Shown here one piece after another: positions 12,757-28,699 of a stretch of 37,516 nt of DNA. Each line of letters opens with the position of its first letter. Position 1 is the first letter of the stretch. The translations under genes were made by a program, and so were the position numbers. Source of the DNA: Neisseria sp. GTDB taxonomy: Bacteria > Pseudomonadota > Gammaproteobacteria > Burkholderiales > Neisseriaceae. The stretch spans positions 1 through 37,516 of the forward strand of contig NZ_JAUNHL010000027.1 of assembly GCF_030523955.1 (NCBI RefSeq). Reading direction: 5' to 3'. The notes beneath the pieces were generated by a model. The model was not told the DNA's origin. It was given only the letters and a program-made list of their open reading frames with translations, and searched no databases.

Positions 12757-12790
12757 TCTCTTTATTTCCGTTTTCCTACCAAACAAATAT

Positions 12791-12812: not shown

Positions 12813-12836
12813 ACAGCATCACATCGTGTCAAATCT

Positions 12837-14087
12837 TTAATCACCGTATACCGGGCGGCGGGCACACAAGACCTCTACTTTACCGGCAACTTCTTTCAAC
12901 ACCGCTTCGTTATCCGGCGCCTCCAATACATCGGCAATTAAGTTAGCCAATTCGCGGGTGTCGTTTTCATCGAAACCGCGGCTGGTGATGGCCGACGCAC
13001 CCAAACGCACGCCGGAGGTAACAAACGGTTTTTCCGGATCATTCGGAATCGCGTTTTTGTTCACGGTGATGTGCGCCTTGCCCAAAGCTTCTTCGGCTGC
13101 TTTACCGGTAATGTTTTTGGCGCGCAGATCCACCAGGAACATATGGCTCTCGGTACGGCCCGAAACAATGCGCAAACCACGTTGGGTCAATACTTCGGCC
13201 ATGGCTTTGGCATTGAGCTTCACTTGTTTGGCGTATTCTTTCCAAGAAGGCTCCAACGCTTCTTTAAATGCCACCGCTTTGGCAGCAATCACGTGCATCA
13301 ACGGGCCGCCTTGCAGGCTCGGGAAAATGGCGGAATTGATTTTTTTCGCCAACTCCTCATCGTTGGTCAACACGATGCCGCCGCGCGGGCCGCGCAAAGT
13401 TTTGTGGGTGGTCGAAGTGGTGAAATGAGCGTGCGGAACCGGGTTCGGGTATTCACCGGCAGCGATCAAGCCGGCGTAGTGCGCCATGTCGACAAACAGA
13501 TACGCACCGATTTTGTCGGCAATTTCACGGAAACGTTTGAAATCGATTTCCAAGGCGTAGGCAGAAGCACCGGCCACAATCATTTTCGGCTTGTGTTCCA
13601 ATGCCAAGCGCTCGACTTCATCATAGTCAATGGTTTCGTCGTCGCCCAAACCATAGGGCACCACTTTATACAGTTTGCCGGAAATATTCACCGAAGCACC
13701 ATGGGTAAGATGGCCGCCATGCGCCAGATTCATCCCCAAAATCGTATCGCCCGGCTGCAATACCGAAGTGTAAACCGCTTGGTTGGCTTGCGAGCCGGAA
13801 TGCGGCTGTACGTTGGCATACTGGGCGCCGAACAGTTTTTTAATGCGGTCGATCGCCAGTTGCTCGACGATATCGACATATTCGCAACCGCCGTAATAGC
13901 GCTTGCCGGGATAACCTTCGGCGTATTTATTGGTCAGTTGCGAACCTTGCGCCTCCATCACCGCCGGGCTGACATAGTTTTCGGAAGCGATCAGCTCCAC
14001 ATGGTCTTGCTGGCGCTCGACTTCCTGCGCAATGGCCTTGGCCACTTCGGGGTCAAAAGATTCGACTGTCACACTGCGTGAAAACAT
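12837..14087 (-). CDS. glyA: Serine hydroxymethyltransferase
   Basis: A 416-residue cytosolic PLP enzyme that interconverts serine + THF and glycine + 5,10-methylene-THF. The PLP lysine is K229 in [13 protein letters not shown], and [10 protein letters not shown] and [13 protein letters not shown] are the usual substrate and dimer motifs. Length is standard. AAGGAG is 7 bases upstream. It lies 88 bp downstream of purU on the same strand, divergent from soxBDAG. Sarcosine oxidase yields both glycine and 5,10-methylene-THF, the two substrates for serine synthesis here, so the placement makes metabolic sense. Pseudomonas sox operons carry their own glyA copy in the same way. Whether the genome has a second glyA cannot be seen. 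Confidence 0.97.
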
Positions 14088-14175
14088 ATTATTTCTCCTT
14101 CGTAAAAATCATGATGATACAAATCGGGTGCAGAATTAAGCGTCGCCGGAATCTCCGGCGGTTTTGACAGGAATA

Positions 14176-15033
14176 TCAGCGCAGCACCACAGTACGCTCT
14201 CCGTTGATAAATACCCGGCGCTCTAAAACTTGCTGCAATGCGCGCTCCAACACCACGCTCTCGCTGTGGCGGCCGGTGCGCAGCAAATCGGCCGGCGTAA
14301 ACGCATGATCTACGCGCTCCACATCCTGATCGATAATCGGACCTTCGTCCAAATCCGGCGTAACGAAATGTGCGGTGGCACCGATCAGTTTTACCCCGCG
14401 CGCATGCGCCTGTTCATAAGGCTTGGCTCCCCTAAAGCCCGGTAAAAACGAATGGTGGATATTGATGGCCTGCTTTTCCAGCATTTTGCTGGTTTGCGGA
14501 CTCAATACCTGCATATAGCGCGCCAACACCACAAATTCGGCATCCAATTGGCTCTTCAAGTCGATAATCTGCTGTTCTTGTCGTGCACGGTTTTCATTGT
14601 TCACCGGCAAATGGTAATACGGTATGCCGTGATGATCGGCAATCGGCTTCAAGTCCAAATGATTGGAACCGATGCCGACAATATCCATATTTAATACACC
14701 CAATTTGCTGGCCGAAATCAAGGTATTGAGACAATGGTCGGTTTTCGACACCATAATTAGCACTTTAACCGGTTCGTCCAAATCCCAAATATGGCCTTCA
14801 CCGTTTTGCTGCTGCAAAAATTCATGGTATTCGTCTTGCAGGCGTTTCAAATCAAAGCTTTTTTCCTCAATGTGAAAAACACTACGCAGATAAAAATATT
14901 GGCAAATTTCATCGTCGAACACCGAAAATTGTTCGATGTACGCCCCGTGATTCTCCAGAATCCGGGTCAACTCACCCACCTGCCCGCGTTGGCTGGGTGC
15001 GGAAAAATTCAATGCATAGCGCTGAAAACCCAT
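14176..15033 (-). CDS. purU: Formyltetrahydrofolate deformylase
   Basis: A 285-residue enzyme that hydrolyses 10-formyl-THF to formate and THF. Residues 5-80 form an ACT domain (ALNFSAPSQRGQVGELTRIL). The rest is a formyltransferase fold with the catalytic HHSFLPGFRGAKPY and DEGPIIDQD motifs. The frame is open to 15246, but the ATG at 15033 has AGGAG 5 bases upstream and matches the family N-terminus. Divergent from soxB and upstream of glyA. It would regenerate free THF when sarcosine breakdown floods the one-carbon pool, as proposed for the purU copy in Pseudomonas sox operons. Confidence 0.93.
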   Translation of the reverse strand: MGFQRYALNFSAPSQRGQVGELTRILENHGAYIEQFSVFDDEICQYFYLRSVFHIEEKSFDLKRLQDEYHEFLQQQNGEGHIWDLDEPVKVLIMVSKTDHCLNTLISASKLGVLNMDIVGIGSNHLDLKPIADHHGIPYYHLPVNNENRARQEQQIIDLKSQLDAEFVVLARYMQVLSPQTSKMLEKQAINIHHSFLPGFRGAKPYEQAHARGVKLIGATAHFVTPDLDEGPIIDQDVERVDHAFTPADLLRTGRHSESVVLERALQQVLERRVFINGERTVVLR

Positions 15034-15224
15034 GGTTACTCCTCTTAAAGTTATTGTGCAACCGGCCCGCCGGATAGCCAAGCCGAATGGATTATTCATG
15101 ATGGCATTGCTGCAAAAGCAAAGTATATCCAAATCGACACCCAGCATAACAAATACGACAGGCCCGACAGGCTTGTATTTAACCGAATAAACCTTGTCGC
15201 TTCCTGAACAAATTACGTCTAAGT

Positions 15225-15253
15225 TTGACGGTTTTACAACAATCAAATATCAA
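15225..15253 (+). promoter_or_regulatory. Candidate soxBDAG promoter
   Basis: TTGACG at 15225-15230, 17-base spacer, TATCAA at 15248-15253, with start near 15260 and a leader of about 38 nt. The -10 box is weak, as expected for an activated promoter. Just upstream (15194-15211) a split repeat TTGTC...GAACAA could be an activator site. The whole 15034-15297 spacer between purU and soxB holds no other gene. Confidence 0.35.
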
Positions 15254-15297
15254 TAATAGCTAGAATTTACAGCCTACCGCTGGATTTGGGAGAAGAA

Positions 15298-16572
15298 ATG
15301 AGTAACGGAACTTTTGATAAAAACAACTTCTACTCTTGGAAGTCGTTGCTGAAAAACAGCTTATCGCACAACCAGAACTGGCCGGAAGCACGCCGCATGG
15401 CAACCTTGCAAAGCCAGTATGATGTGATTATCGTCGGCGGCGGCGGCCACGGTTTGGCAACTGCCTATTATCTGGCAAAAAACCATAATGTCGGCAAAAT
15501 CGCCGTATTGGAAAAAGGCTATCTGGGCGGCGGCAATACCGCGCGCAACACCACATTGGTGCGCTCAAACTATCTATGGGAAGATGCCGCCAATTTATAC
15601 GAACATTCCATGAAACTGTGGGAAGGCCTGTCTGAAGATTTGAACTTCAATACCTTCTTCAGCCAGCGCGGCGTATTCAACTTGGGTCACAACCTGCAAG
15701 ACATGCGCGACATCGAACGCCGTGTAAACGCCAATAATCTCTTGGGCATCGATGCTTATGTTTTGAACGCCAAAGAAGTGCAAGAACGCATCCCCCTGCT
15801 CGATTGCTCGCGCCGTACCCGTTATCCGGTACTCGGTGCCAGTTGGCAACCGCGCGGCGGTATCGCACACCACGATGCAGTCGCCCGTGGTTTTGCCCGC
15901 GCAGCCAGCCATCTGGGCGTAGACTTGATTGAAAACTGCGAAGTCACCGGCATGAACATCAGCGAAGGCCGCATCCAAGGCCTGCAAACCACCCAAGGTT
16001 TCGTGCGCGCCAATCAGGTAGGTGTCGTCGCTGCCGGCCACACTTCGGTTCTGGCCAATATGGCAGGCTTGCGCTTCCCGATTGAAAGCCATCCGTTGCA
16101 AGCGTTCGTTTCCGAATCCATGCAAAAAGTCTTTGATACCGTGGTGATGTCGAATGCCGTACACGGCTACATGAGCCAGTCGGATAAAGGCGAATTTGTG
16201 ATCGGCGCCGGTATCGACAGCCATCTGGGTTACGGCCAGCGCGGCAGCCCGCACATCATCGAGCACACTGCCGCCGCCATTATCGAATTATTCCCGCAAC
16301 TCTCCCGCGTGCGCATGAACCGCCAATGGGGCGGTATCGTGGATGTTACTCCCGATGCCTGCCCGATTATCAGCAAAACGCCGGTTAAGGGCTTGTATTT
16401 CAACTGCGGTTGGGGTACCGGCGGCTTCAAAGCCACTCCGGGTTCCGGCCACGTATTCGCCCACACCATCGCCAACGACAATCCGCATCCGTTGAACGCA
16501 GCCTTTACCTTAGACCGCTTCTACACAGGCCGTCTGATTGATGAACACGGCGCCGCCGGCGTTGCTCACTAA
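15298..16572 (+). CDS. soxB: Sarcosine oxidase, beta subunit
   Basis: A 424-residue flavoprotein that carries the sarcosine-oxidising site of heterotetrameric sarcosine oxidase. The Rossmann motif is VIIVGGGGHGLATAYYLAKN (residues 43-62). GGIAHHDAV holds H192, the position of the histidine that binds FMN covalently in this family. The C-terminal WGGIVDVTPDACPII and YFNCGWGTGGFKATP are typical. The ATG at 15298, with GGGAGA 7 bases upstream, is preferred over a TTG at 15286. First gene of soxBDAG. A DUS core lies inside the gene at 15626-15636. Confidence 0.96.
   Translation: MSNGTFDKNNFYSWKSLLKNSLSHNQNWPEARRMATLQSQYDVIIVGGGGHGLATAYYLAKNHNVGKIAVLEKGYLGGGNTARNTTLVRSNYLWEDAANLYEHSMKLWEGLSEDLNFNTFFSQRGVFNLGHNLQDMRDIERRVNANNLLGIDAYVLNAKEVQERIPLLDCSRRTRYPVLGASWQPRGGIAHHDAVARGFARAASHLGVDLIENCEVTGMNISEGRIQGLQTTQGFVRANQVGVVAAGHTSVLANMAGLRFPIESHPLQAFVSESMQKVFDTVVMSNAVHGYMSQSDKGEFVIGAGIDSHLGYGQRGSPHIIEHTAAAIIELFPQLSRVRMNRQWGGIVDVTPDACPIISKTPVKGLYFNCGWGTGGFKATPGSGHVFAHTIANDNPHPLNAAFTLDRFYTGRLIDEHGAAGVAH
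15626..15636 (+). repeat. DUS core inside soxB
   Basis: GCCTGTCTGAA within soxB coding sequence, showing that the sox genes carry the local dialect. Confidence 0.85.
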
Positions 16573-16584
16573 GGAGCCCATCAC

Positions 16585-16893
16585 ATGCTTTATTTACATT
16601 GCCCGTTTTGCGGCGAAAAACGCGACGAACAAGAATTTCATTACGCCGGCGAAGCCTTTATTGTCCGCCCGAAAAATCCTGAAGAATTAAGCGACGAAGA
16701 ATGGGGCGACTATGTATTCATGCGTAGCAACCATAAAGGCTGGATCTGGGAACAGTGGGAACACACCTCCGGCTGCCGGAAGTTGTTTGTGGTTAAACGC
16801 CACAACGTTACCAATGAAGTAGAAGGCAGCTATACATTCGCAGAAGCCCGCAAAGCATCTGAAAAACAATCAGCAGCAGAGGAGTCGGTATGA
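16585..16893 (+). CDS. soxD: Sarcosine oxidase, delta subunit
   Basis: A 102-residue zinc-binding small subunit. Ligands match the family pattern: C6 and C9 (HCPFCGEK), H60 and C64 (EHTSGCRK). RGNHxxGWxxExWxHxxGC-like spacing is kept as RSNHKGWIWEQWEHTSGC. It lies 12 bases after soxB and overlaps the soxA start by 4 bases (ATGA). The last 12 residues are Glu/Ser-rich. Confidence 0.96.
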   Translation: MLYLHCPFCGEKRDEQEFHYAGEAFIVRPKNPEELSDEEWGDYVFMRSNHKGWIWEQWEHTSGCRKLFVVKRHNVTNEVEGSYTFAEARKASEKQSAAEESV

Positions 16894-19800
16894 GCGCAAG
16901 ACGCATTTTAAAACCATCGGTACAAGTCGAAGCAGGCAACACCGTTAGCTTTGAATTCGATGGCCAACAATACCAAGGCCTGAAAGGCGATACATTGGCA
17001 TCGGCATTGCTGGTAAACGGCGTTAAAGCCTTGGCCCGCAGTTATAAATACGGCCGTCTGCGCGGCATCATGAGCGCCGGTGCGGAAGAGCCTAACGCGC
17101 TGGTACAACTGGAAAAAGGTGCTTTCAGCACGCCTAACGTCAAAGCGACACAAGCCGAGCTCTACCAAGGCTTGATTGCGGAACGTACATCCGGCCGCCC
17201 CAGCCTGCATTTCGATTACAAAGGTATGATCGGATCGGTAGGCAAAGCCATGATGCCGCCCGGTTTTTACAGCAAAACCTTTAAATGGCCGCCAAAACTC
17301 TGGCCGACTTACGAAAACGTTATCCGTCAGTTCGCCGGCTTCGGCAGTACGCCTGAAGTGGGTGATGCCGAATGGTATGACCATCTGCATCATTATGTGG
17401 ACGTATTGGTTGTCGGCGGCGGTTTGGCCGGCTTGCAATCTGCCCTCAATGTTGCCGAAAACGGCTTGAAAGTGCTGTTGGTGGACGAGCAGGCACAATT
17501 GGGCGGCTGGCTGTTATCCGATGCAAGCAGCCGTTTCGACGGCATCAGCGGTGCCGAATACGCGGCCAGTCTGGCGGAAAAACTGAAGCAGCATCAAAAC
17601 GTAACGGTTTTAACCCGCACCACCGCCTTCGCCTTGCACGACCATAATTTGATTCAAGCGGTTGAACTGTTGCAAGATCACCTACCCTTAGGTCAACGCA
17701 ATCCCGACCAACCGCGCCAGCGTCTGCACCGTATCCGTGCCGATAAAGTCATTCTGGCCAGCGGTGCGATCGAACGGCCATTGGTATTCGGCAACAACGA
17801 CACCCCCGGCGTTTTCACCGTTTCGGCTGCGCAAACCTATCTGAATCGCTATGGCGTACTGTTGGGCGATAAAATCGTGATTTGCGGTAACAACGATGAA
17901 ATCTATCTGGCCGCCCGTGATTTGGCGCAGGCTGGCGCCGAAGTGATTGTTGCTGATGTACGTTCGCGCAGCAGCATCCCGGCCTATATTTCCAAACAAG
18001 TCAAAGTGCATCTGGCTACCGGGATTGCGCAAGTTAACGCCGGCAAAGGCCAAGTTCACGGTGTGGAACTGATAGATCTGAAATCCGGTGGCAAGCAAAG
18101 CGTAGCCTGCGAAGTGGTACTTTCCAGCGGCGGCCTGTCGCCTACCGTACACTTGTATTGCCACGATACCAGCCGTCCGCTGTGGGATGCCGAAAAAATG
18201 GCGTTTGTAGTACCCGATAAGTACGAGAACTGCAAACCGACCGTATGCAATGTAGGTGCGGTAACCGGCAGCAAAACTTGGCAGCAAACCCTTGCACAAA
18301 CCGCCGACATTCTGAAAGCCTTTTTGGCTGACCGCGGCATCCAAGCCGATATCGAGATGCCCAAAGTGGTTGAAGAAAAACATCAGGCTATGGAATTGGC
18401 CGTACGCCTGCCTGATGGCAAGCCGGCAGGCAAAGGTGCCAAAGCCTTTGTCGATTACCAAAACGATGTGACGGCCGAAGACATCAAAATCACCATTCAG
18501 GAGAACTACCGCCATATCGAACACGTGAAGCGCTATACCGCTTTCGGCTTCGGTACCGAACAGGGCAAGCTCTCCAGCGTCAACAGCTTTATCTTGACCG
18601 CAGAAGCCATGGGGGTTCCGGTAGAACAAGTCAGCACCACCACTTACCGCCCGGCTTATACACCGGTCAGCCTGGGTGTGTTGGCAGGCTTGGATGCCGG
18701 CGACACCTTCGACCCGGAGCGGATTACCGCCATGCACGAAAGCCATGTTGCGCGCGGCGCAGAATTCGAGCCGGTCGGACAATGGCTGCGTCCGTGGTAT
18801 TTTCCCAAAGCCAGTGAAGACATTCATGCCGCGGTTAACCGCGAATGCTTGGCTGCACGCAACGGTGTCGGTGTAATGGATGCCTCTACGCTGGGTAAAA
18901 TCCAGATCGACGGCCCGGATGCACGCGAATTCCTAAACCGCATCTATTCCAATGCTTGGTCTAAGCTGGAACCCGGAAAATGCCGCTACGGCCTGATGTT
19001 GGATGAAAACGGCATGGTTATGGACGACGGCGTAACAGCCTGCGTCAGCGAAGAGCAATTCTACATGACCACCACTACCGGCGGCGCCGCCCGCGTATTA
19101 AGCTGGCTGGAATTATGGCATCAGAGCGAATGGCCGGATTTGAAAGTCTGGATGACTTCGGTAACCGACCATTGGGGTACCATTGCCGTAGTCGGTCCCA
19201 AATCCCGCCAAGTCCTGCAAAAACTGTGTAACGACATCGATTTCTCCGCCGAGGCCTTCCCATTTATGGAATGGAAAGCAGGTACCGTAGCCGGCTTGCC
19301 CGCACGTGTATTCCGCGTATCCTTCTCCGGCGAATTGGCTTATGAAATCAATGTGGAAGCCGGTTACGGCCACTATCTGTGGGAGCAAGTAATAGCCGCA
19401 GGCGCCGAATTTGACATTACGCCCTATGGCACCGAAACCATGCACGTATTGCGTGCCGAAAAAGGTTTCATCATCGTCGGCCAAGATACCGACGGCTCGG
19501 TAACGCCGATTGATTTGGGCATGGGTTGGGCAGTGGGTATGAAAAAACCCTTCTCCTTCTTGGGCAAACGCTCTCTTGCACGCAGCGACACCGCGCGCAG
19601 CGACCGTAAACACTTGGTCGGTTTGTTCCCGCAAGATACGAACACGGTTATTCCCGAAGGTGCGCAGATTGTGGCCGATGCCAACATCAAAGTGCCGGAA
19701 GCCGGCGGATACGACCCGAAAGTTCCGCTGTTAGGCCACATTACTTCCAGCTATTACAGCGCCTTCCTTGGCCGGTCGATTGCCATGGCCGTAATAACCG

Positions 19801-19919
19801 ACGGTCGTAACCGTATCGGGCAGACCCTGTATGCCTTCAGCCAAGGCAAATTGATTCCGTTCACCGTAGCCGACAGCTCGGTATTTGTGGATGCCAAAGG
19901 AGAACGTCAACATGGTTGA
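16890..19919 (+). CDS. soxA: Sarcosine oxidase, alpha subunit
   Basis: A 1009-residue large subunit. Residues 15-110 form a ferredoxin-like domain without cluster cysteines. DVLVVGGGLAGLQSALNVAE (about 170-189) and a second dinucleotide fold (about 325-350, KIVICGNNDEIYLAARDLA) bind FAD and NAD+. Residues 620-1009 form a GcvT-like tetrahydrofolate-binding domain (REFLNRIYSNAWSKLEPGKC). This domain takes up the methyl carbon as 5,10-methylene-THF. Length is normal (about 1000). The start overlaps soxD, and the end overlaps soxG by 8 bases, so all four subunits are translationally linked. Confidence 0.97.
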   Translation: MSARRILKPSVQVEAGNTVSFEFDGQQYQGLKGDTLASALLVNGVKALARSYKYGRLRGIMSAGAEEPNALVQLEKGAFSTPNVKATQAELYQGLIAERTSGRPSLHFDYKGMIGSVGKAMMPPGFYSKTFKWPPKLWPTYENVIRQFAGFGSTPEVGDAEWYDHLHHYVDVLVVGGGLAGLQSALNVAENGLKVLLVDEQAQLGGWLLSDASSRFDGISGAEYAASLAEKLKQHQNVTVLTRTTAFALHDHNLIQAVELLQDHLPLGQRNPDQPRQRLHRIRADKVILASGAIERPLVFGNNDTPGVFTVSAAQTYLNRYGVLLGDKIVICGNNDEIYLAARDLAQAGAEVIVADVRSRSSIPAYISKQVKVHLATGIAQVNAGKGQVHGVELIDLKSGGKQSVACEVVLSSGGLSPTVHLYCHDTSRPLWDAEKMAFVVPDKYENCKPTVCNVGAVTGSKTWQQTLAQTADILKAFLADRGIQADIEMPKVVEEKHQAMELAVRLPDGKPAGKGAKAFVDYQNDVTAEDIKITIQENYRHIEHVKRYTAFGFGTEQGKLSSVNSFILTAEAMGVPVEQVSTTTYRPAYTPVSLGVLAGLDAGDTFDPERITAMHESHVARGAEFEPVGQWLRPWYFPKASEDIHAAVNRECLAARNGVGVMDASTLGKIQIDGPDAREFLNRIYSNAWSKLEPGKCRYGLMLDENGMVMDDGVTACVSEEQFYMTTTTGGAARVLSWLELWHQSEWPDLKVWMTSVTDHWGTIAVVGPKSRQVLQKLCNDIDFSAEAFPFMEWKAGTVAGLPARVFRVSFSGELAYEINVEAGYGHYLWEQVIAAGAEFDITPYGTETMHVLRAEKGFIIVGQDTDGSVTPIDLGMGWAVGMKKPFSFLGKRSLARSDTARSDRKHLVGLFPQDTNTVIPEGAQIVADANIKVPEAGGYDPKVPLLGHITSSYYSAFLGRSIAMAVITDGRNRIGQTLYAFSQGKLIPFTVADSSVFVDAKGERQHG

Positions 19920-20556
19920 TACAACACTGGTAGAAAAATGGGAAACGCCTTTGCACGTGCAATGGGCGGAGTTGAATGAACAAGCTGCCATCGACAGCGT
20001 CAATTACAGCAGCGGCAGCGCCTTGGGCTTTATCTATCTGCGCGGCATAGCGGATGATAAGGCGTTTAGCCAAGCGGTAGCCTCCGTTTTGGGCAGCGAT
20101 ATTCCCACCCAACCCAAACAAACGGTATACACCAAACCGGCCGCCGTATTGTGGCTGTCTCCCGATGAATGGCTCTTGGTATGCTCTTATGCAGAGAAAA
20201 ACGATTTGCTGCAAAAACTGCAAACCGCATTAAAAGGCGTATACGCCCAAGTGGTGGACAACAGCGGCGGCTTCATGCTGATGCGTATCCACGGCAATGA
20301 TGCCACTACTATTTTGCGCCATATCTCTCCGTACAATTTTGAGTCTTTACAGACAGGCCAATGCGTACAGACCATTGCAAAGAAAACCACCGTAGTGGTC
20401 GTAAAAGTAGCCGAAAACGATTACGCCTTCATTTTCCGCCGCAGTTTTGCCGATTATTTGTGGCGTATTTTGCAAAAAACCGCCAAGCCTTACGGCTATG
20501 CTTTGCAAAAAAAATGGCAGTTTTCAGAAACCGATTGGCAACGCTATACGGCTTGA
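19912..20556 (+). CDS. soxG: Sarcosine oxidase, gamma subunit
   Basis: A 214-residue subunit with a GcvT/YgfZ-like fold and no cofactor of its own. VLWLSPDEWLLV (about 82-93) is the family motif. The ATG at 19912 has AAAGGAG 9 bases upstream within the soxA end; an upstream TTG at 19885 is unlikely. It closes the operon and is followed by a strong terminator. A degenerate DUS (TTACAGACAGGCC) lies near 20346. Confidence 0.92.
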   Translation: MVDTTLVEKWETPLHVQWAELNEQAAIDSVNYSSGSALGFIYLRGIADDKAFSQAVASVLGSDIPTQPKQTVYTKPAAVLWLSPDEWLLVCSYAEKNDLLQKLQTALKGVYAQVVDNSGGFMLMRIHGNDATTILRHISPYNFESLQTGQCVQTIAKKTTVVVVKVAENDYAFIFRRSFADYLWRILQKTAKPYGYALQKKWQFSETDWQRYTA

Positions 20557-20590
20557 TTAAAGCTGGCCAACAGTAAAATCTCTGCTTATT

Positions 20591-20625
20591 ATCCCTGCGC
20601 TGCAAACCGCGCAGGGATTTCTTTT
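20591..20625 (+). terminator. Terminator of the soxBDAG operon
   Basis: ATCCCTGCGC and GCGCAGGGAT form a 10-bp stem with an 8-base loop, followed by TTTCTTTTG. Confidence 0.9.
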
Positions 20626-20636
20626 GTATAATCATG

Positions 20637-20650
20637 TCGCTTTTAAGCGA
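20637..20650. promoter_or_regulatory. Palindrome downstream of a TATAAT box
   Basis: TCGCTTTTAAGCGA is a perfect 14-base palindrome. A perfect TATAAT lies at 20627-20632, so the palindrome would sit at the start of transcription of the regulator gene at 20741. It could be an autoregulatory operator. No good -35 box is seen. Confidence 0.35.
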
Positions 20651-20740
20651 TCGCATGTCGAATTTATCACGCGCCATACCGCTGAAAGCCAGTAAGTTTA
20701 TGCCTGAAAAAAGGGAAAAGTCTGTACCAAGGAGAAAGAG

Positions 20741-21766
20741 ATGAGCATACCAAACCATTATTATCAACATAAAACCCAAAAAATCGGGTTTATTTTATTA
20801 CGCGGTTTCACCATGCTCAGCTTTGCCAGCGTGATTGAAGTAATGCGCATGACCAATTATTTAAGTCAAAATGAACTTTATTCTTGGCATATTTATCAAG
20901 ATCAGGAAGACATTTGCGCCAGCAACGGTTTACGCTTTGAAAATTCCATCAGCAAAGAAGAATTGTTCGGATGCGATATTGTTTTCGTTTGCGGCGGCAT
21001 TCACGTGCAAACCGCCACCACCGCATCGATCAAACAATTATTGCAACAGCTGGCGGCACAAGAAAATATCATTCTGGGCGGTTTATGCACCGGCTCCATC
21101 GCCTTGGCTCTGGCCAACCTGATGGACGGTTATCACAGCGCCGTGCACTGGGAAAGTTTGCCGGCAGCAAAAGAAGCTTTTTTGAAAGTGAAATTCGGCG
21201 AACAACTCTATGTAATCGATAAAGACCGCTATACCTGCTCAGGAGGCACCGCCTCTATCGATATGATGTTGCAGCTTGTCCGCATCCAGCATGGCAAGGC
21301 GCTGGCCACTTCGGTATCCCAACAATTCGTGGTCGAGAGAATCCGCGAAGCGTCTACCACCCAATATCTGGTTTATACGGAAAACATGGGGCCGGGCTAT
21401 GAATATGTGCGTGCCGCTATTGAACTGATGCAGGCAAATCTCGATGAAATCTTATCGATGCAGGAAATCGCCAATTTGATTCCGCTCTCTTTGCGCCAAA
21501 TGGAGCGTTTGTTTAAACGTTATTGCCATGTTTCACCGGCTCAATATTATTTGCGCCTGCGTTTGCAGCGCGCCAAAGAATTGTTGGCACAAACCAGCAT
21601 GAGCATCATGCAAGTAACGGTTGCCTGCGGCTTTTCGACTTCATCGCACTTTTCCAAAGCCTTCCGCAACTATTACGGCTACTCTCCGCGTGAACAACGC
21701 AAACCCACCGACCCTTCGCTGACTTATAAAGTAGCGGGCTCAGGCGGCGTAATCAGCAATCTTTAA
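20741..21766 (+). CDS. GATase1-AraC regulator beside sox genes
   Basis: A 341-residue transcription factor of the GlxA/GATase1-AraC type. Residues 13-195 form the DJ-1/PfpI-like ligand-binding domain, with GGLCTGS placing a cysteine (C116) at the nucleophile elbow and RYTCSGGTAS near 163. Residues 215-330 form the two-HTH AraC domain (MQEIANLIPLSLRQMERLFKR and FSTSSHFSKAFRNYYGYSP). AAGGAG is 7 bases upstream. This is the family of GbdR and SouR, which in Pseudomonas sense dimethylglycine or sarcosine and activate sox genes. Its position 185 bp behind soxG makes it the likely sarcosine-responsive activator. Confidence 0.85.
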   Translation: MSIPNHYYQHKTQKIGFILLRGFTMLSFASVIEVMRMTNYLSQNELYSWHIYQDQEDICASNGLRFENSISKEELFGCDIVFVCGGIHVQTATTASIKQLLQQLAAQENIILGGLCTGSIALALANLMDGYHSAVHWESLPAAKEAFLKVKFGEQLYVIDKDRYTCSGGTASIDMMLQLVRIQHGKALATSVSQQFVVERIREASTTQYLVYTENMGPGYEYVRAAIELMQANLDEILSMQEIANLIPLSLRQMERLFKRYCHVSPAQYYLRLRLQRAKELLAQTSMSIMQVTVACGFSTSSHFSKAFRNYYGYSPREQRKPTDPSLTYKVAGSGGVISNL

Positions 21767-21804
21767 CAGGCACAGTGAATCTGACAATATCTAAAATCGG
21801 CAAT

Positions 21805-21840
21805 AAAAAGGCTGCATCCTTATCGGATACAGCCTTTTTC
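21805..21840. terminator. Bidirectional terminator between regulator and BCCT gene
   Basis: AAAAAGGCTGCATCC and GGATACAGCCTTTTT pair with one mismatch around TTATC. A and T runs on both flanks serve both convergent genes. Confidence 0.88.
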
Positions 21841-21868
21841 ATCCAACCTCAAATTTCACAACTAAAGA

Positions 21869-23590
21869 TTAATCGGATTTAACCGTATTTGCAGGAGGGG
21901 CCAGCGGTATACCATGCTCATCCAGCAATAAATCTTCTTCACGGAAATTCGGATCGTTAATCTCTTTTTCCAGTTTCTTAATGGCTTTATTCCGAGTTTT
22001 CAAGCGTCGGAACAAATTGGCAATCATCAGCAGAATCACAAATGCAAACGGAAACGCACCGATAATAACGCCTGTCTGAACGGTATCGACTACGGCGTTA
22101 TCGCCCAGCGACAGCAACACAATCGCAACGGTGGCAATCGAGGCTACCAAAACCACGCGGAAGGCCGGGCTCGATTTACGCGGCGCGGATACAAACTCCG
22201 ACAAAGCGTAAGTACCCGAATCCAGCGAAGTAACATAATAAGTTGCTACCAAAATTGTAGCCACCACCATCAGCAAGCTGCCGCCGAACGGTAACAAATC
22301 GAGCATGGCAAACAAACCGCTGGAGCTGTCTGCCTTAATTGCCGCACTAATCAAACCTTTCGACTGTTCATCGTAATACATACCCGCAGAAGCAATGATA
22401 CCGATCCAGATCATCACGATCGCCGAAGGAATCACCGTTACGCCGATAACGAATTCGCGAATGGTACGGCCGCGCGAAATACGTGCAATAAAACCGGCCA
22501 CAAACGGGCTGAACGCAATCACCCAGCACCAAATAAAAATCGTCCACCAACCGTTCCAAGAATCTTTCCAAGAGGCCAAGGGCGACATGGTCAATTCAGG
22601 GCCGACATAGAAGCTCATGGTAATGAATTGGTCAAAGAATACGCCGGTGGTTTGCACCAAATTACCGAGAATGTAAACCGTCGGGCCAATCACCAATACG
22701 CTGAGTACCAGCACAATCGATAAGATGGTATTGGCCTCCGAAACGATTTTCATCCCTTTATCCAAACCGGCAAAGGCGGAAAATGAAGCCAGTACACCAA
22801 GCACCGCAATAATCACCACCCAAGTAGTGGTATTGCTGCCCAGCAAGCCCAAGGTCTGCAAACCGGATGAAAACTGGATGGATGCAAACGCAAAGCTGGT
22901 TGCCAAACCCAATACGGTCGCAATAATCGCCAGCATTTCAATCACCACGCCGGCCGGCCGCTGGGCCGCTTTGGGCAACAAATCGACGGTTGCCTCACGG
23001 AAAGTCAGCGTTTTTCCGAGGTTGTGGTGCGAATAAGCCAAACAGGCCGCAACGACACCGTACATCGCCCAAGCAGTAAAGCCCCAATGGAAATAGCCCC
23101 ATACAATGCCGCTCTCGCCGGGATTGCTGTTAATCGGCAAAATACCCGCATCATTTTTCAACATGATAGGCTCGGCCAGCGACCAGAAAATCAGGCCGAT
23201 ACCCTGCCCGCAGGCAAACAGCATCGAATACCAAGCAAAATTTGAAAACTCCGGTGCCGCCTTCGGCCCGCCGAGACGCACTTTGCCCAACTTGGAAAAG
23301 GTCAGCCAAATACACATGCCAACCGATACCAAGGAATAAAGAATAATAAACCAAGCCCAACCGCTGGTGATTTTCGTGCGCAGGTATTGGATGATGTCGG
23401 AAACGCCGGTCGGATTCATAATCACCGCAGCCACCACCAGAATAATCAATATCGGCGGCAACACTTTGATAATCAGAGAATCCAGCGGCGGAATCACCGT
23501 ACCCCGGAACCGGGGTAAGCTGGTTTGTATTTTTTGATCAGGCGGCATTGATTCTTTCTGATTTTGATCTTTGTTTGACGGGGTTGTCAT
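21869..23590 (-). CDS. BCCT family transporter
   Basis: A 573-residue betaine/carnitine/choline-type secondary transporter with 12 predicted helices, a polar N-terminal tail (1-35) and a charged C-terminal tail (KTRNKAIKKLEKEIN). Family signatures are GYFHWGFTAWAMYG (165-178) and WWTIFIWCWVIAFSPFVAGF with FIARISRGRTIREF. The glycine stretch in helix 3 is GQGIG. The ATG at 23590 with GGAG upstream is preferred over 23665. BCCT substrates are quaternary or N-methylated ammonium compounds. The setting between sarcosine and creatine genes makes sarcosine, creatine or betaine plausible, but the sequence alone does not tell. DUS core at 22070. Confidence 0.88.
   Translation of the reverse strand: MTTPSNKDQNQKESMPPDQKIQTSLPRFRGTVIPPLDSLIIKVLPPILIILVVAAVIMNPTGVSDIIQYLRTKITSGWAWFIILYSLVSVGMCIWLTFSKLGKVRLGGPKAAPEFSNFAWYSMLFACGQGIGLIFWSLAEPIMLKNDAGILPINSNPGESGIVWGYFHWGFTAWAMYGVVAACLAYSHHNLGKTLTFREATVDLLPKAAQRPAGVVIEMLAIIATVLGLATSFAFASIQFSSGLQTLGLLGSNTTTWVVIIAVLGVLASFSAFAGLDKGMKIVSEANTILSIVLVLSVLVIGPTVYILGNLVQTTGVFFDQFITMSFYVGPELTMSPLASWKDSWNGWWTIFIWCWVIAFSPFVAGFIARISRGRTIREFVIGVTVIPSAIVMIWIGIIASAGMYYDEQSKGLISAAIKADSSSGLFAMLDLLPFGGSLLMVVATILVATYYVTSLDSGTYALSEFVSAPRKSSPAFRVVLVASIATVAIVLLSLGDNAVVDTVQTGVIIGAFPFAFVILLMIANLFRRLKTRNKAIKKLEKEINDPNFREEDLLLDEHGIPLAPPANTVKSD
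22070..22080 (+). repeat. DUS core inside BCCT gene
   Basis: GCCTGTCTGAA within coding sequence. Confidence 0.85.
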
Positions 23591-23754
23591 TTCTTTTGCT
23601 CCATTTTTTGTGGTCCGGTATAAAAAATTCAAACAGATAATCCGATTTAAATTCCCCTTAACCATCCAAATATCGTCTACTTCATCTGCCCTTGATTAAC
23701 TCTGAAGGTTTTATTCTCGGTAAATACTCTATTTTTCTTTTAAGACTTTAAACC

Positions 23755-23795
23755 AAAGAGGCCTGTCTGAAAGTTTGTTTCAGACAGGCCTCTTT
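23755..23795 (-). terminator. Inverted DUS pair ending the MFS gene
   Basis: AAAGAGGCCTGTCTGAAA and its complement form an 18-bp stem with a 5-base loop. It contains DUS cores at 23761-23771 and 23779-23789. It lies 5 bases past the MFS stop, so it separates that gene from the BCCT gene, whose promoter must lie in 23591-23754. Confidence 0.9.
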
Positions 23796-23799
23796 CTTT

Positions 23800-25116
23800 C
23801 TAAAGCACTTTTCGGCTGTTATCTTTCACGCACAACACCGCCAGCATCGCCACCACCGCTACCGCCATCAAATACCAAGCAGGTGAGATTTTGGAGCCGC
23901 TTACACTGATCAGCCAAGTCGCAACCAGCGGCGTGGTACCGCCCATCAAAGCATTTGCGGAGTTAAAACTAAAGGCAAAGCCGGTATAGCGCACATCGGT
24001 CGGAAACAGCTCGGACAGAAAAGCAGGCAACGTGCCGTCGTTCACCGACAAAATCGCGCCGAAAATAATCTGAATCAGCAAAATCAAGCCGAAACCGCCC
24101 CAGCCGAATGCCATAAACAAAGGCACCGTCAGCACAACAAACAACACCGAGGCAGCAATCAGCATGGCTTTGCGGCCATAACGATCCGACAATTTGCCCA
24201 TAATGAAAATAAAACCGACATAAGACAACAGCGATACCGATGCCGCAACAAACGATTCGGTTTTACCTACGCTCATATTTTCCGAAAGATATTCCGGCAT
24301 GTAGCTCAAAATCAGATAAAACGCCACTGCATTCAGACAGGCCACCAAAAAGGCTACCAACAAGGCTTTCGGATGCTCCTTAAACAAGCGCTTAATCGGT
24401 ACGGATTCGGGATGGGCATTGGCCATGGCCGCCTGGAAAGAAGGTGTTTCTTCCAGCTTCAAACGGATATAGCGTCCCACCAAACCGAACGGTGCGGCCA
24501 ATAAAAACGGAAGCCGCCACCCCCATTCTTTCAATGCCTCCTCGCTCAGCAAGCCGTATAAGCCTGCCGCCATCAGTGAGCCCAGCAACAAACCTGCCGC
24601 AGTGGAAGCCGGAATCAGCGCAGTATAAAAACCACGCTTTTCGGGCGGCGCATATTCGGCCAGGAAAGTTGCCCCGCCGGCATATTCGCCTGAAGCGGAA
24701 AAACCCTGCGCCAACCTCAGCAATAGCAGCAACACCGGTGCCGCAAGACCGATAGTGGCATACCCGGGCAACAAAGCGATCAAAAACGTCGCTACCGTCA
24801 TAATCAGGATCGACCACGACAAAGCCGGACGCCGCCCGTATCGGTCACCGATATAACCCCAGAAAATACCGCCCAAAGGACGAACAATGAAAGATGCGGC
24901 AAATACGGCGTATGTAGACATCAAAGCCGTGGTTCTGTCGCTCTCCGGAAAAAATACCATTGCAATGGTTGCCGCTAAATAGCCGTAAGCACCGTAATCG
25001 AACCATTCTACAAAGTTACCGATGAATGTTGCCTTGGCGGCACGGTTTAAATCGCCATTATCTTGTTGCTGCGTGTGATGCGAAGAAGTTCCTGAAGCGC
25101 CAACGATTGTTGTCAT
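23800..25116 (-). CDS. MHS-type MFS transporter (ProP/ShiA-like)
   Basis: A 438-residue, 12-helix proton symporter of the metabolite:H+ symporter subfamily. NFVEWFDYGAYGYLA (about 33-47) marks the first helix, GDRYGRRPAL the loop 2-3 motif, and RLAQGFSASGEYAGG with APPEKRG the loop 4-5 motif. ProP in this subfamily carries proline and betaine, others carry organic acids. The ATG at 25116 has AGGAG 7 bases upstream; a TTG at 25122 is an alternative. It follows creatinase by 137 bp on the same strand, separated only by a 68-bp hairpin element, so the two may be co-transcribed. It is the best-placed creatine or creatinine importer. Confidence 0.85.
   Translation of the reverse strand: MTTIVGASGTSSHHTQQQDNGDLNRAAKATFIGNFVEWFDYGAYGYLAATIAMVFFPESDRTTALMSTYAVFAASFIVRPLGGIFWGYIGDRYGRRPALSWSILIMTVATFLIALLPGYATIGLAAPVLLLLLRLAQGFSASGEYAGGATFLAEYAPPEKRGFYTALIPASTAAGLLLGSLMAAGLYGLLSEEALKEWGWRLPFLLAAPFGLVGRYIRLKLEETPSFQAAMANAHPESVPIKRLFKEHPKALLVAFLVACLNAVAFYLILSYMPEYLSENMSVGKTESFVAASVSLLSYVGFIFIMGKLSDRYGRKAMLIAASVLFVVLTVPLFMAFGWGGFGLILLIQIIFGAILSVNDGTLPAFLSELFPTDVRYTGFAFSFNSANALMGGTTPLVATWLISVSGSKISPAWYLMAVAVVAMLAVLCVKDNSRKVL
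24332..24342 (-). repeat. DUS core inside MFS gene
   Basis: TTCAGACAGGC within coding sequence. Confidence 0.85.
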
Positions 25117-25155
25117 GATCAAGCTCCTTTTTTCTATCCGTATCAGAATAAGTAT

Positions 25156-25223
25156 GAGGTCTTTGCAAAATTCAGAGCTTCATTAAAAGCCCCGGATAAC
25201 TTGGGTTATTTTGCAAAGACCTC
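25156..25223. mobile_element. 68-bp hairpin element with GAGGTCTTTGCAAAA ends
   Basis: Perfect 15-bp inverted ends GAGGTCTTTGCAAAA and TTTTGCAAAGACCTC enclose 38 bases. The ends are a variant of the GAGACCTTTGCAAAA ends at 12308 and 12614. It lies between creatinase and the MFS gene, where its hairpin could lower readthrough, although it has no T run. Confidence 0.7.
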
Positions 25224-25253
25224 CTTATTTCAATGGTATTCCGTCAGTTGGGT

Positions 25254-26483
25254 TCAGCCTGCGGAGATGATATTGTGCTCCGGACCGTACGGGAACTTGG
25301 TGATGTTCTCAGCGCCGCCTTCTTTAACCACCAAGATATCGTGTTCGCGATAACCGCCGGCACCCGGCATACCTTCCGGCAGCATAATCATCGGTTCGAT
25401 GGAGATCACCATGCCCGGCTCCAGAACGGTATCGATGTCCTCGCGCAACTCCAAACCGGCTTCGCGGCCGTAGTAGTGCGACAACACGCCGAAAGAGTGG
25501 CCGTAACCGAAAGTACGGTATTTCAGCAAATCATATTCTTCGTAGATTTTGTTCAGTTCGTGGGCGATTTCGCAGCAGCGGATACCCGGTTTTACCAAAG
25601 CCAAACCGGCTTCGTGAACTTTCACATTGACTTCCCACAATTTCAGAGAGGCATCATCCACATGATCGTAGAACATGGTGCGTTCCAGCGCGGTGTAGTA
25701 ACCGGAAATCATAGAGAAACAGTTCAGGCTCAGAATATCGCCTTTTTGCACCTTGCGGCTGGTTACCGGATTGTGCGCACCATCGGTATTGATGCCTGAT
25801 TGGAACCAAGTCCAAGTATCCATCAGTTCGCTGTCCGGATAACGGCGGGCAATTTCGCGAATCATTGCTTGAGTGGAAGCCAGCGCCACCTCGTATTCCG
25901 GGATACCTTCGGTTACCGCATCGCGCAGCGCGAAACCGCCGATATCACACACATTGGCACCGTTTTTAATAAACTCGATTTCTTCGGCCGATTTCACCAT
26001 ACGCATGCGCATACAGGCAGCACTGATGTCGACAAACTCCACATCCGGCAGCGCCGCTTTCAATTTTTCCAAGCGCTCCAGCGGCAGATGGTCCATTTCA
26101 ACCCCGATGCGGCCTTTTTTCGGCAATTCCTGCGCACAGGCTTTGAAATAATTGTCGCGTTGCCAGTCGGTATACACCACATTGTAATCACCTACCGTAC
26201 GACGCCACGGTTGGCCGCCGTCGATGTTGGCGGAAATGGAAACCACTTTGTCCTGAGTAACCACCAAGCCGTAGAAACGGCCGAACGAGCAATACAAAAA
26301 GTCGGAGTAGTAGTTAATATTGTGATAAGAGGAGAACAGCACGCCGTCGATTTGCATCTCCGCCATTTTCTGGCGAAGCAGGCTTTGCCGGCGTTGGTAT
26401 TCAGCCAAGCTGAAGGTGGATTTGACTTTTTCACCGTTCTCAATGGTAATCAAGCTGGGCATTTGCATCGGGTTTGAGGACAT
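25254..26483 (-). CDS. Creatinase (creatine amidinohydrolase)
   Basis: A 409-residue cytosolic enzyme that hydrolyses creatine to sarcosine and urea. It has the pita-bread (aminopeptidase P-like) fold without metal ligands. By comparison from memory with P. putida creatinase the proteins align almost end to end with an offset of 5: general acid/base H237 (H232 there) in TDGAHNP, substrate residues R69, E267, R340 and E363. Blocks such as SYHNINYYSDFLYCSFGR, SANIDGGQPWRRTVG and ELMDTWTWFQSGINTDG are shared nearly unchanged. This makes creatinase, not a Xaa-Pro peptidase, the firm call. AGGAGA is 8 bases upstream of the ATG at 26483. Divergent from a GATase1-AraC regulator; probably co-transcribed with the MFS gene. 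Confidence 0.95.
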   Translation of the reverse strand: MSSNPMQMPSLITIENGEKVKSTFSLAEYQRRQSLLRQKMAEMQIDGVLFSSYHNINYYSDFLYCSFGRFYGLVVTQDKVVSISANIDGGQPWRRTVGDYNVVYTDWQRDNYFKACAQELPKKGRIGVEMDHLPLERLEKLKAALPDVEFVDISAACMRMRMVKSAEEIEFIKNGANVCDIGGFALRDAVTEGIPEYEVALASTQAMIREIARRYPDSELMDTWTWFQSGINTDGAHNPVTSRKVQKGDILSLNCFSMISGYYTALERTMFYDHVDDASLKLWEVNVKVHEAGLALVKPGIRCCEIAHELNKIYEEYDLLKYRTFGYGHSFGVLSHYYGREAGLELREDIDTVLEPGMVISIEPMIMLPEGMPGAGGYREHDILVVKEGGAENITKFPYGPEHNIISAG

Positions 26484-26535
26484 CTTTATTTCTCCTGATT
26501 AGATTCGAATATCAACTTTAATTTTGAAGCCACAA

Positions 26536-26564
26536 TTGACAATACTTCATGATTTAAGCATTAT
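26536..26564 (+). promoter_or_regulatory. Promoter for the creatinase-linked regulator
   Basis: A consensus -35 TTGACA at 26536-26541, 17-base spacer, and CATTAT at 26559-26564. Start near 26571 would give an 88-nt leader that includes the inverted repeat at 26622. It lies in the divergent spacer shared with creatinase. Confidence 0.5.
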
Positions 26565-26621
26565 CTGTTGCACATCATAATAAAACACAGTCGACCGAAA
26601 ATATGCTTAATACGACATATT

Positions 26622-26642
26622 CTTGTCACGCTTAGTGACAAG
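26622..26642. promoter_or_regulatory. Inverted repeat in regulator leader
   Basis: CTTGTCAC and GTGACAAG are perfect 8-bp arms around GCTTA, ending just before the ribosome site of the regulator gene. It could be an operator for autoregulation or an RNA hairpin over the start region. A looser TTGTC...GAACAA lies in the purU-soxB spacer. Confidence 0.5.
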
Positions 26643-26658
26643 CAAACAGGAGAATAAA

Positions 26659-27630
26659 ATGACGATGCCTGCAACCAAGCATCAGATTGGTTTTGTTTTA
26701 CTTGAAGGTTTTTCCATGATTGCCTTCTCCAACGCCATTGAAGCCTTCCGTATGGCCAATTACGTCAGCAATCAGGATTTGTACCATTTCTCAGTTACCG
26801 GCCTGACCGGCGCCCACACCTCGGCCAGCAACCATATTTCCGTCAACCACACCGCCCAAATGTCGGATTTGCTGCGGTGCGACTTAATCTTCGTTTGCGG
26901 CGGATTTGATTTGAACAAACTGAAAAATTCCGGTTTGCGCACTTGGCTGCAACGTTATGCGCAAAAAGGCGCAGCCTTGGGCGGCGTATGCACCGGTGCG
27001 TTTGCACTGGCCGATGCCGGCCTCTTGAACGATTACCGCGCCAGCATCCATTGGGAAAATATGCTGGCGGCCAAAGAAACCTTCCCGCAAACCCACTTCA
27101 ACACCTCGATCTACACCATAGACCGCAACCGCTATACCTGCTCGGGCGGCACAGCGGCGCTGGATTTATGCATTAATATCATCCGCCTGAATTATGACCG
27201 CAAGCTTTCCGAATCGGTGGCCGAACAATTCACACTCTCGACCTTGCGCGGCGAAGACGAACCACAGCATATCCCCTTATCCGCCCAATTAAACTCCGGC
27301 TACAACTATGTGGTGGAAGCCTTGGTATTGATGGACAAAAACCTCGAAGAGCCGCTGCCGATTCACGAAATTGCCCAATTATTAGGCATATCCGTACGCC
27401 AACTCGAACGTTGGTTCAACAGCTATTTCAACAAACCGCCGCAACTGTATTACATCGAAGTGCGCCTGCTGCACGCCAAGCGTTTGCTGAAACAAACCAA
27501 CAAATCGATTATGGACGTCGCCCTCGCTTGCGGCTTCTCCAATCCCTCCAGCTTCAGCAAAGCCTACCGCAGCCAATTCAGCTTAACGCCGTCGCAAACC
27601 CGTAAACAAACCATGGCCTCGGCCGGCTGA
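26659..27630 (+). CDS. GATase1-AraC regulator beside creatinase
   Basis: A 323-residue paralogue of the regulator at 20741. Residues 9-185 form the DJ-1/PfpI-like domain with C111 in GGVCTGA and NRYTCSGGTAALD. Residues 210-315 form the AraC DNA-binding domain (IHEIAQLLGISVRQLERWF and FSNPSSFSKAYRSQFSLTP). The ATG at 26659 with CAGGAG 8 bases upstream is chosen over 26623. It is divergent from creatinase with a 175-bp shared spacer, the classic place for its activator. CahR of P. putida, a GATase1-AraC factor, activates creatinase in this way (established knowledge, from memory). Creatine as ligand is inferred. Confidence 0.85.
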   Translation: MTMPATKHQIGFVLLEGFSMIAFSNAIEAFRMANYVSNQDLYHFSVTGLTGAHTSASNHISVNHTAQMSDLLRCDLIFVCGGFDLNKLKNSGLRTWLQRYAQKGAALGGVCTGAFALADAGLLNDYRASIHWENMLAAKETFPQTHFNTSIYTIDRNRYTCSGGTAALDLCINIIRLNYDRKLSESVAEQFTLSTLRGEDEPQHIPLSAQLNSGYNYVVEALVLMDKNLEEPLPIHEIAQLLGISVRQLERWFNSYFNKPPQLYYIEVRLLHAKRLLKQTNKSIMDVALACGFSNPSSFSKAYRSQFSLTPSQTRKQTMASAG

Positions 27631-27636
27631 ATGCCT

Positions 27637-27802
27637 GAGAGCTTTGCAAAATTCTTTTCGATACCTGAAAACACGTGCGTCATGCTCGGGCTTGACCCGA
27701 GCATCTGGTTGTTTAAGGAGAACGAACAGATACTCGGGTCAAGCTCAAGCATGACGAAATATTAATCAACTCAGGATTAAAACGGCTTTTTGCAAAAGTC
27801 TC
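27637..27802. mobile_element. 166-bp MITE with GAGACC-type ends (copy 2)
   Basis: Same order as the copy at 12308: GAGAGCTTTGCAAAATTC left end, AATTCTTTTCGATA, two CTCGGG-family units, and TTTTTGCAAAAGTCTC right end. Each end has one change from GAGACCTTTGC, so it is probably older. Its right end directly abuts a DUS. Confidence 0.8.
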
Positions 27803-27814
27803 TGCCTGTCTGAA
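27803..27814 (+). repeat. DUS abutting a MITE
   Basis: Exact TGCCTGTCTGAA starting on the base after the MITE end. Confidence 0.9.
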
Positions 27815-27863
27815 ACTTTTGAAAGTCTCATTACGCAATAAAACGGAAAAGGCGTTCAAAATT

Positions 27864-27875
27864 TTCAGACAGGCA
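27864..27875 (-). repeat. DUS, wad dialect
   Basis: Exact TTCAGACAGGCA, facing the DUS at 27803 across 49 bases. Confidence 0.9.
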
Positions 27876-27892
27876 TTTCCCCGCCGCATACA

Positions 27893-27927
27893 AAAAAACT
27901 GCTCCGCCAAATAACGGAGCAGTTTTT
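27893..27927. terminator. Bidirectional terminator before creatininase end
   Basis: AAAAAACTGCTCCG and CGGAGCAGTTTTT pair around an 8-base loop, with A and T runs on both flanks. It serves the convergent regulator and creatininase genes. Confidence 0.88.
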
Positions 27928-27940
27928 ATGCCGGAATATT

Positions 27941-28699
27941 TCAAGCCGGGAATTTCGGCAATACGCGCTTGCCGATGTTCACCAATACATTATCGACAAT
28001 CAGCTTGCCTTTGGCCGCCGTACTGGAGCGCGAGGTGCTCAAACAACCCGATGCGGGTACCATGCCTTCCAACGGTGGATAACTGTGGAAACTCAACACC
28101 TCTTCCACCTTATCGTTGGGAATCTTATCTTCCTGTACCAAATGCGGATAAAAATGCATCATCAGCGAAGTTTCGGTAATCGCCGCATGTTCCAGCGCCC
28201 AGCCGGGGAAAGGAATGCTGTCGAACACCTGTTCCACAATCTGCTGATCCAGATTATCCCACCAGTTCACGATGAAGGTGCGCACGTTCACATCCCGCTC
28301 TTTGGCCGCCAAATCGGCGCCTTCCAATACGAACGCTTCGTTTTCGTAGTGACAGTTGAAAATCATGATTTTCTTCCAGCCGTCGCGGGCGAACTCCACC
28401 ACGATGTCTTTCACCAGATTAATCAGCGTGGTGCCGTTCAAATCAATGGTGCCGGGGAAGAAAGGGCCGCCGCCGCTCATCGGCAAGGATTTGTAACCGT
28501 AATTGATGGTGGGCGCAACCACCGCACCGATTTGTTCGGCCAGCGCACGCGCAAACGATGTCGCCAACATCGCATCGACACCCAACGGCAAATGCGGGCC
28601 GTGCTGCTCGGTGGCACCGATGGGAATAATCAGAATTTTGTTTTGGTCTATCTGATCTTTATATTGAAACCAAGATAATTCTTCAATTAAATATGACAT
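27941..28699 (-). CDS. Creatininase (creatinine amidohydrolase)
   Basis: A 252-residue metal enzyme that opens creatinine to creatine. Metal and catalytic residues match the P. putida enzyme with an offset of 3: E31 and H33 (ATEQHGPH), D42, H117 and E119 (CHYEN). GYKSLPMSGGGPFFPGT and WALEHAAITETSLMM carry the active-site loops. Closely related families (mycofactocin MftE, FAPy deformylase ArfB) share the fold, but the GYKS...SGGG block and location beside creatinase favour creatininase. AGGAGA is 6 bases upstream. It is alone on its strand, separated from creatinase by the regulator. Confidence 0.88.
   Translation of the reverse strand: MSYLIEELSWFQYKDQIDQNKILIIPIGATEQHGPHLPLGVDAMLATSFARALAEQIGAVVAPTINYGYKSLPMSGGGPFFPGTIDLNGTTLINLVKDIVVEFARDGWKKIMIFNCHYENEAFVLEGADLAAKERDVNVRTFIVNWWDNLDQQIVEQVFDSIPFPGWALEHAAITETSLMMHFYPHLVQEDKIPNDKVEEVLSFHSYPPLEGMVPASGCLSTSRSSTAAKGKLIVDNVLVNIGKRVLPKFPA

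Follow-up and report, generated by a model that had tools for sequence, protein, structure and literature searches.

A putative creatinine and creatine catabolic island, probably acquired horizontally, in a Neisseria genome with the wadDUS dialect

Neisseria are usually described as nutritionally narrow, and animal tissue and body fluids are rich in creatinine and creatine. Here, we describe a gene island from Neisseria sp. (assembly GCF_030523955.1; 2.81 Mb in 107 contigs) that would supply the metabolism of glycine, serine, and one-carbon units from imported creatine and creatinine. The island lies on contig NZ_JAUNHL010000027.1 (C60), all 37,516 nucleotides of which were analyzed and are called the window below. 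Genes for a creatininase, a creatinase, the four subunits of a heterotetrameric sarcosine oxidase (soxBDAG), a serine hydroxymethyltransferase, and a formyltetrahydrofolate deformylase stand together with two permease genes (BCCT and MFS families), two AraC-type regulators, and an orphan membrane protein (Table 1). The original prediction made from this DNA named the first eight genes, all of which are intact open reading frames; it missed the remaining five, as well as the existence of a second glyA in the genome.

Table 1. Features of the island and its borders (window positions)
Feature	Position	Strand	Evidence or remark
Orphan polytopic membrane protein, 372 amino acids	11106..12224	+	Candidate sarcosine/creatine permease
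Dispersed repeat, left copy	12308..12451	+	144 nucleotides, 88% identical to 27637-27780
glyA2, serine hydroxymethyltransferase, genome's second copy	12837..14087	-	Family profiles, tree
purU, formyltetrahydrofolate deformylase	14176..15033	-	Family profiles; ATG start likely
soxB, sarcosine oxidase beta	15298..16572	+	Profile and structure-chain alignment; start likely
soxD, delta	16585..16893	+	Pfam cutoff passed, NCBIfam not
soxA, alpha	16890..19919	+	NCBIfam profile and structure-chain alignment
soxG, gamma	19912..20556	+	Pfam cutoff passed, NCBIfam not; start likely
AraC-type regulator 1, DJ-1/PfpI domain, sox side, GbdR-like	20741..21766	+	Profiles; 65% identical in G051
BCCT-family permease	21869..23665	-	Pfam BCCT, 443 bits
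MFS permease, CreT-like, beside creatinase	23800..25122	-	Profiles and neighborhoods
Creatinase (creatine amidinohydrolase)	25254..26483	-	1chm alignment, residues, tree
Divergent intergenic region, creatinase/AraC-type regulator 2	26484..26622	.	Position between divergent genes
AraC-type regulator 2, DJ-1/PfpI domain, creatinase side	26659..27630	+	Profiles; ATG start
Dispersed repeat, right copy	27637..27780	+	Pairs with 12308..12451
Creatininase	27941..28699	-	TIGR04448, 1j2t alignment, residues
oppD and oppF	29264-31227		To the right of creatininase

Creatininase scored 312.7 bits against TIGR04448 (equivalog cutoff, 235) and 187 bits against 1j2t, and its residues E31, H33, D42, H117, and E119, which we take to be metal ligands, are present (equivalence judged by eye from the 1j2t alignment). 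Creatinase aligned with Pseudomonas putida creatinase 1chm over residues 7 to 406 (675 bits), and its top match under any name other than creatine amidinohydrolase reached 82 bits. F67, R69, H237, E267, H329, R340, E363, and H381 are present, again by eye from the 1chm alignment; these presumably comprise the catalytic histidine and the substrate-binding arginines and glutamates. No creatinase model is found among the protein's 11 NCBIfam matches, the best of which is ectoine hydrolase (88 bits; cutoff, 575). Both enzymes thus keep the key residues that had been claimed for them.

The four sox genes share one strand and are separated by 12 bases or overlap. SoxA (1,222.6 bits; cutoff, 1,164) and SoxB (652.3; cutoff, 529.45) passed their NCBIfam cutoffs and matched chains of heterotetrameric sarcosine oxidase with 729 and 541 bits, respectively, and SoxD has C6, C9, H60, and C64, which in our view fit a zinc site. 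The island GlyA passed PRK00011 (665.1; cutoff, 335) and is 82% identical to the copy on contig C3. PurU passed PRK06027 (331.1; cutoff, 223); the genome has two purU copies, 40% identical to each other, and the island copy likely starts at ATG 15033 rather than TTG 15246. The listed open reading frame of AraC-type regulator 2 begins at TTG 26623, and ATG 26659 is preceded by a purine-rich stretch.

An MFS-type permease, CreT, is proposed as a creatine carrier, with homologues beside creatinase or creatininase elsewhere, in an excerpt of PMC8864220. The MFS permease of the island stands beside creatinase, as a CreT-type permease would, and by this neighborhood it is a putative CreT-like creatine carrier. 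The substrates proposed here for the permeases, like the ligands of the regulators, are suggested by neighborhood only. Sigma-70-like promoter matches between 12000 and 29300 were no more frequent than in shuffled sequence (15 versus a mean of 20.6).

From family knowledge, the pathway would run as follows. The CreT-like permease would take up creatine and creatinine, and the BCCT permease and the orphan membrane protein would be additional carriers; creatininase would convert creatinine to creatine, and creatinase would split creatine into sarcosine and urea. Sarcosine oxidase would then convert sarcosine to glycine, with transfer of its methyl group onto tetrahydrofolate as methylenetetrahydrofolate and formation of hydrogen peroxide, after which the dedicated GlyA2 would join glycine and methylenetetrahydrofolate into serine and PurU would free tetrahydrofolate by releasing formate. 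Control of the creatine half and of the sarcosine half would fall to the two GbdR-like AraC regulators. The same route from creatinine to serine had been predicted earlier, and the gene content agrees with it. The original prediction also raised the possibility that the island is an adaptation to host nutrients, which is speculative here. Urease alpha (PF00449), the one urea-using enzyme searched for, had no match in this genome; a control search detected it in 4 of 14 genomes, with scores above the cutoff in 3. Urea is therefore more likely waste, and probably not a nitrogen source.

Distribution was assessed in 46 Neisseria genomes, this one included (41 at least 90% complete), with E-value limits of 1e-60 for creatinase, SoxA, and glyA, 1e-20 for purU, and 1e-10 for creatininase. 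Creatinase was found in two (this genome and G038, 76% identical), SoxA in this genome only, creatininase in three (this genome, with G002 and G028 both at 36%), purU in 4, and glyA in 45. Among 83 Neisseriaceae genomes, creatinase occurred in 3 and SoxA in 4, including G050 and, at only 38% identity, G081. The full gene set was present in this genome alone among those searched. The pathway, known from other bacteria, is thus rare among the 46 Neisseria genomes. The closest counterpart is G051, a one-contig genome from another genus of the Neisseriaceae, which has counterparts of soxBDAG, purU, glyA, the membrane-protein gene, the MFS gene, creatinase, and the two AraC genes at 61 to 90% identity; the 40 kb of G051 that were searched gave no match to creatininase or BCCT.

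The other three Neisseria carriers are arranged differently. G028 (L136:6202-13063) and G002 (L137:5585-12444) have a distinct creatininase cluster composed of AraC, CreT-like MFS, EamA-type, creatininase (TIGR04448, 340 bits in G028), second EamA-type, and amidinotransferase genes, the last with arginine:glycine amidinotransferase as its best PDB match (7e-81). Neither creatinase nor SoxA was matched at 1e-60 in these two genomes, and a creatinine route via transamidination is conceivable there. In G038 (L092:17246-19595, L093:1-986), creatinase, MFS, and AraC genes sit between a grpE-like gene and, past an EamA-type gene, an aceK-like gene (both named by eye), and SoxA had no match.

The most frequent repeated words in the window share the core GCCTGTCTGAA (30 copies, 19 of them as TGCCTGTCTGAA). 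An AT-type DNA uptake sequence (AT-DUS) with an inserted T is the wadDUS of Neisseria wadsworthii, as given in an excerpt of Frye and others (2013, PMC3630211), and since the window dialect matches that description, we assign the host to the wadDUS Neisseria. The dialect and the flank matches support the genus given in the original prediction.

The island is depleted of this signal. The 12-base uptake sequence does not occur in 12837 to 27630, although its density in the remainder of the window predicts 12.4 copies there. The 40 kb of G051 lack all four dialect cores for which they were tested, and a donor of that kind would therefore explain the gap. The membrane-protein gene lies to the left of the gap, and copies at 12296 to 12609 stand between it and glyA2. 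In a glyA tree (58 rows, of which 30 are Neisseria rows and do not cover all 46 genomes of the genus; quick method, with support by the Shimodaira-Hasegawa-like approximate likelihood ratio test, SH-aLRT, only), the island copy pairs with the G051 island glyA (SH-aLRT, 97) outside the clade of the 30 Neisseria rows, and the C3 copy of the same genome falls inside it. In a creatinase tree (81 rows, quick method), the window and G051 form a pair (99) that is joined next by five Acinetobacter sequences (93). The G038 creatinase stands elsewhere, on a long branch (88), which may point to two separate gains of creatinase within the genus. Trees of the second AraC gene and the MFS gene had long branches and were left unused.

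Taken together, we consider it very probable that a Neisseria of the wadDUS type acquired this locus horizontally as a catabolic island, leading from creatine and creatinine uptake to glycine, serine, and one-carbon metabolism. Several observations weigh against this view or its details. The 11-base uptake core is depleted rather than absent (5 copies in 12837 to 27630, located within soxB and within or next to the two permease genes, BCCT and MFS, versus 16.3 expected), and the interval was picked from gene bounds after the genes were known. The G+C contents of island genes and flanks overlap, and composition therefore gives no sign of a foreign origin. SoxD (106.6; cutoff, 116.5) and SoxG (107.7; cutoff, 143.95) fall below NCBIfam cutoffs while exceeding those of Pfam, PurU is just under TIGR00655 (279.1; cutoff, 285.95), and the AraC proteins (354.9 and 329.8) share only a common architecture with the GbdR equivalog NF052371 (cutoff, 480). 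Vertical descent with repeated loss is a less probable alternative. An ancient trait of the Neisseriaceae, since lost by almost every Neisseria and not recently acquired, would suit the ordinary G+C content and the finding of the closest relatives within the family (G051, plus the SoxA of G050), but it is unlikely given SoxA in a single Neisseria genome, the depletion of uptake sequences, and the separation of glyA2 from the core glyA.

The substrate could also be another. The soxBDAG-glyA-purU genes with GbdR-like regulators and a BCCT permease presumably resemble betaine/sarcosine loci, and creatininase lies outside the block shared with G051, so the main substrate might be sarcosine, betaine, or another N-methyl compound, with creatinase and creatininase as minor or decayed additions. 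We regard this as distinctly improbable, because creatinase keeps every residue checked, recurs with a regulator and an MFS gene in five Acinetobacter loci and others, and is kept together with sox in G051. It is more improbable still that the contig is contamination, or a chimera, from another Neisseriaceae. The assembly has a contamination estimate of 3.8 (0 to 3 in the 45 other genomes of the genus) and holds a second glyA and a second purU elsewhere; nevertheless, the flank at 6300 to 12836 has a single place in the genome, its own, among the matches listed, the TGCCTGTCTGAA dialect stands on both sides of the island and is also frequent on contigs C3 and C17, the G051 stretch lacks the tested dialect cores, and oppB and oppC on C17 complement oppD and oppF on C60. 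Flank and dialect thus argue against contamination, and the window contig is no obvious contaminant.

The borders of the island are less sharp than the paired 144-nucleotide direct repeats would suggest. A further copy lies directly after oppC on C17 (G000:C17; 87% identical over 199 bases), and the membrane-protein gene, outside the left copy, adjoins glyA in G051 as well. Delimitation by the two repeats is weakened by these findings, and the element reads as a dispersed repeat. This genome has its opp genes in two places, oppB and oppC on C17 (L163:7393-9273) and oppD and oppF in the window, and oppB, oppC, oppD, and oppF lie together in the stretches read of G011, G012, G017, G041, G002, and G028; dispersed repeats close to the island may plausibly have recombined with each other. 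No empty site was found in near relatives, ubiD of G011 adjoining a secA-like gene (named by eye) with the opp genes elsewhere.

The orphan membrane protein (11106 to 12224) reached no Pfam or NCBIfam family cutoff and had no match in a PDB sequence search up to an E value of 10; we take it to be YkvI-like by name. Its gene adjoins glyA in both the window and G051 (61% identical). A plasmid search with it matched 18 records, 7 of which were examined for neighbors. The best match (62%) is a hypothetical protein of Peptoclostridium acidaminophilum, encoded by the next listed gene (in an incomplete gene table) after the sarcosine reductase genes grdG and grdF, on the same strand and 135 bases downstream, and this position makes the window protein a candidate sarcosine/creatine permease. 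Opposing this, a 46% relative on a P. putida plasmid adjoins chemotaxis genes and has no link to sarcosine. The other five relatives (27 to 29%) have various neighbors: an aminotransferase gene in one case, a serine ammonia-lyase gene in another, genes for peptidases and siderophores in two loci that are almost identical, and in the last a group of oxidoreductase genes, some 3 kb from which lies a gene annotated as solA. No homologue occurs in any of the 79 named creatinase loci described below. These neighborhoods are most simply read as those of a permease for sarcosine or creatine, and we give even chances to the further proposal that the protein founds a sarcosine (or creatine) permease subfamily common to two unrelated routes of sarcosine breakdown, the oxidative one of Neisseriaceae (SoxBDAG) and the reductive one of Peptoclostridium (GrdFG). 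If so, the island would be a whole uptake-to-serine unit. The locus also offers a candidate gene for the import of sarcosine or creatine by bacteria.

Beyond the island, the window begins with the 3' end of a transfer-messenger RNA (1 to 52) and has two exact Correia-like repeat ends in opposite orientation between 3006 and 3964. The ubiD gene (9111 to 10610) is 94 to 95% identical in DNA to those of G011 and G012, whose stretches have the AG-DUS dialect, unlike kdsB, which is only about 74% identical; the contrast suggests recombination across DUS dialects. Two exact copies and one near copy of AG-DUS (AGGCCGTCTGAA) stand at 36265 to 36865 beside a LysR-type gene in this wadDUS genome, and that stretch is possibly an import.

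Known systems resemble the island in part. The original prediction held the cluster to be new, and no paper on it in Neisseria was found in the open-access literature by title and start of abstract (most subscription journals lie outside it); clusters of this kind are nonetheless known elsewhere. Novelty is limited by similar neighborhoods in other proteobacteria, creatinase with an MFS gene on Acinetobacter plasmids, and the presence of most of the module in G051, where the creatine half flanks the sox genes on the opposite side. Among 79 named creatinase loci (from the best 80 of 585 confirmed; many end at contig ends), 37 have an MFS homologue of at least 50% identity, which in 34 of them lies no more than 6 kb from creatinase, and glyA is found in 26, creatininase in 28, soxA in 7, and BCCT in 2. 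The seven loci with soxA, from Crenobacter oryzisoli, Paraburkholderia/Burkholderia, Piscinibacter, and Pseudomonas thermotolerans (L027, L021, L024, L034, L048, L068, and L073), all have creatinase near soxA and glyA, as here, and one, Paraburkholderia podalyriae L048, is alone among the 79 in having creatininase with soxA, like the window. Their creatinases are 75 to 80% identical to that of the window and their other enzymes 25 to 70%; gene order differs, and unlike the window they lack a homologue of the membrane protein.

The GbdR/SouR-controlled sarcosine genes of Pseudomonas presumably have an AraC/PfpI-type regulator beside the sox genes, as in the window, whose two regulators, however, score under the GbdR equivalog cutoff. 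On plasmids, creatininase had no close relative, all 422 matching records being less than 60% identical. In Corynebacterium glutamicum, according to excerpts of PMC8864220, a CreT-type permease accompanies creatininase, as in the window, with CrnA, HyuB, CshA, and AmtR control in place of creatinase and GbdR-like regulators. Acinetobacter plasmid CP119202 has creatinase (about 80% identical) followed by an MFS permease, like the window, and excerpts of PMC6863613 name a ProP transporter and a GlxA-family regulator near the creatinase of pAbe229-15; sarcosine oxidase, by contrast, had no match in five Acinetobacter contig loci (L004 to L008; 9 to 21 kb each). The island thereby links the Neisseriaceae to a creatinase module also carried by Acinetobacter plasmids and, if functional, would mean that a genus usually regarded as nutritionally narrow gained creatinine and creatine use by way of a metabolic module that brings along a second glyA.

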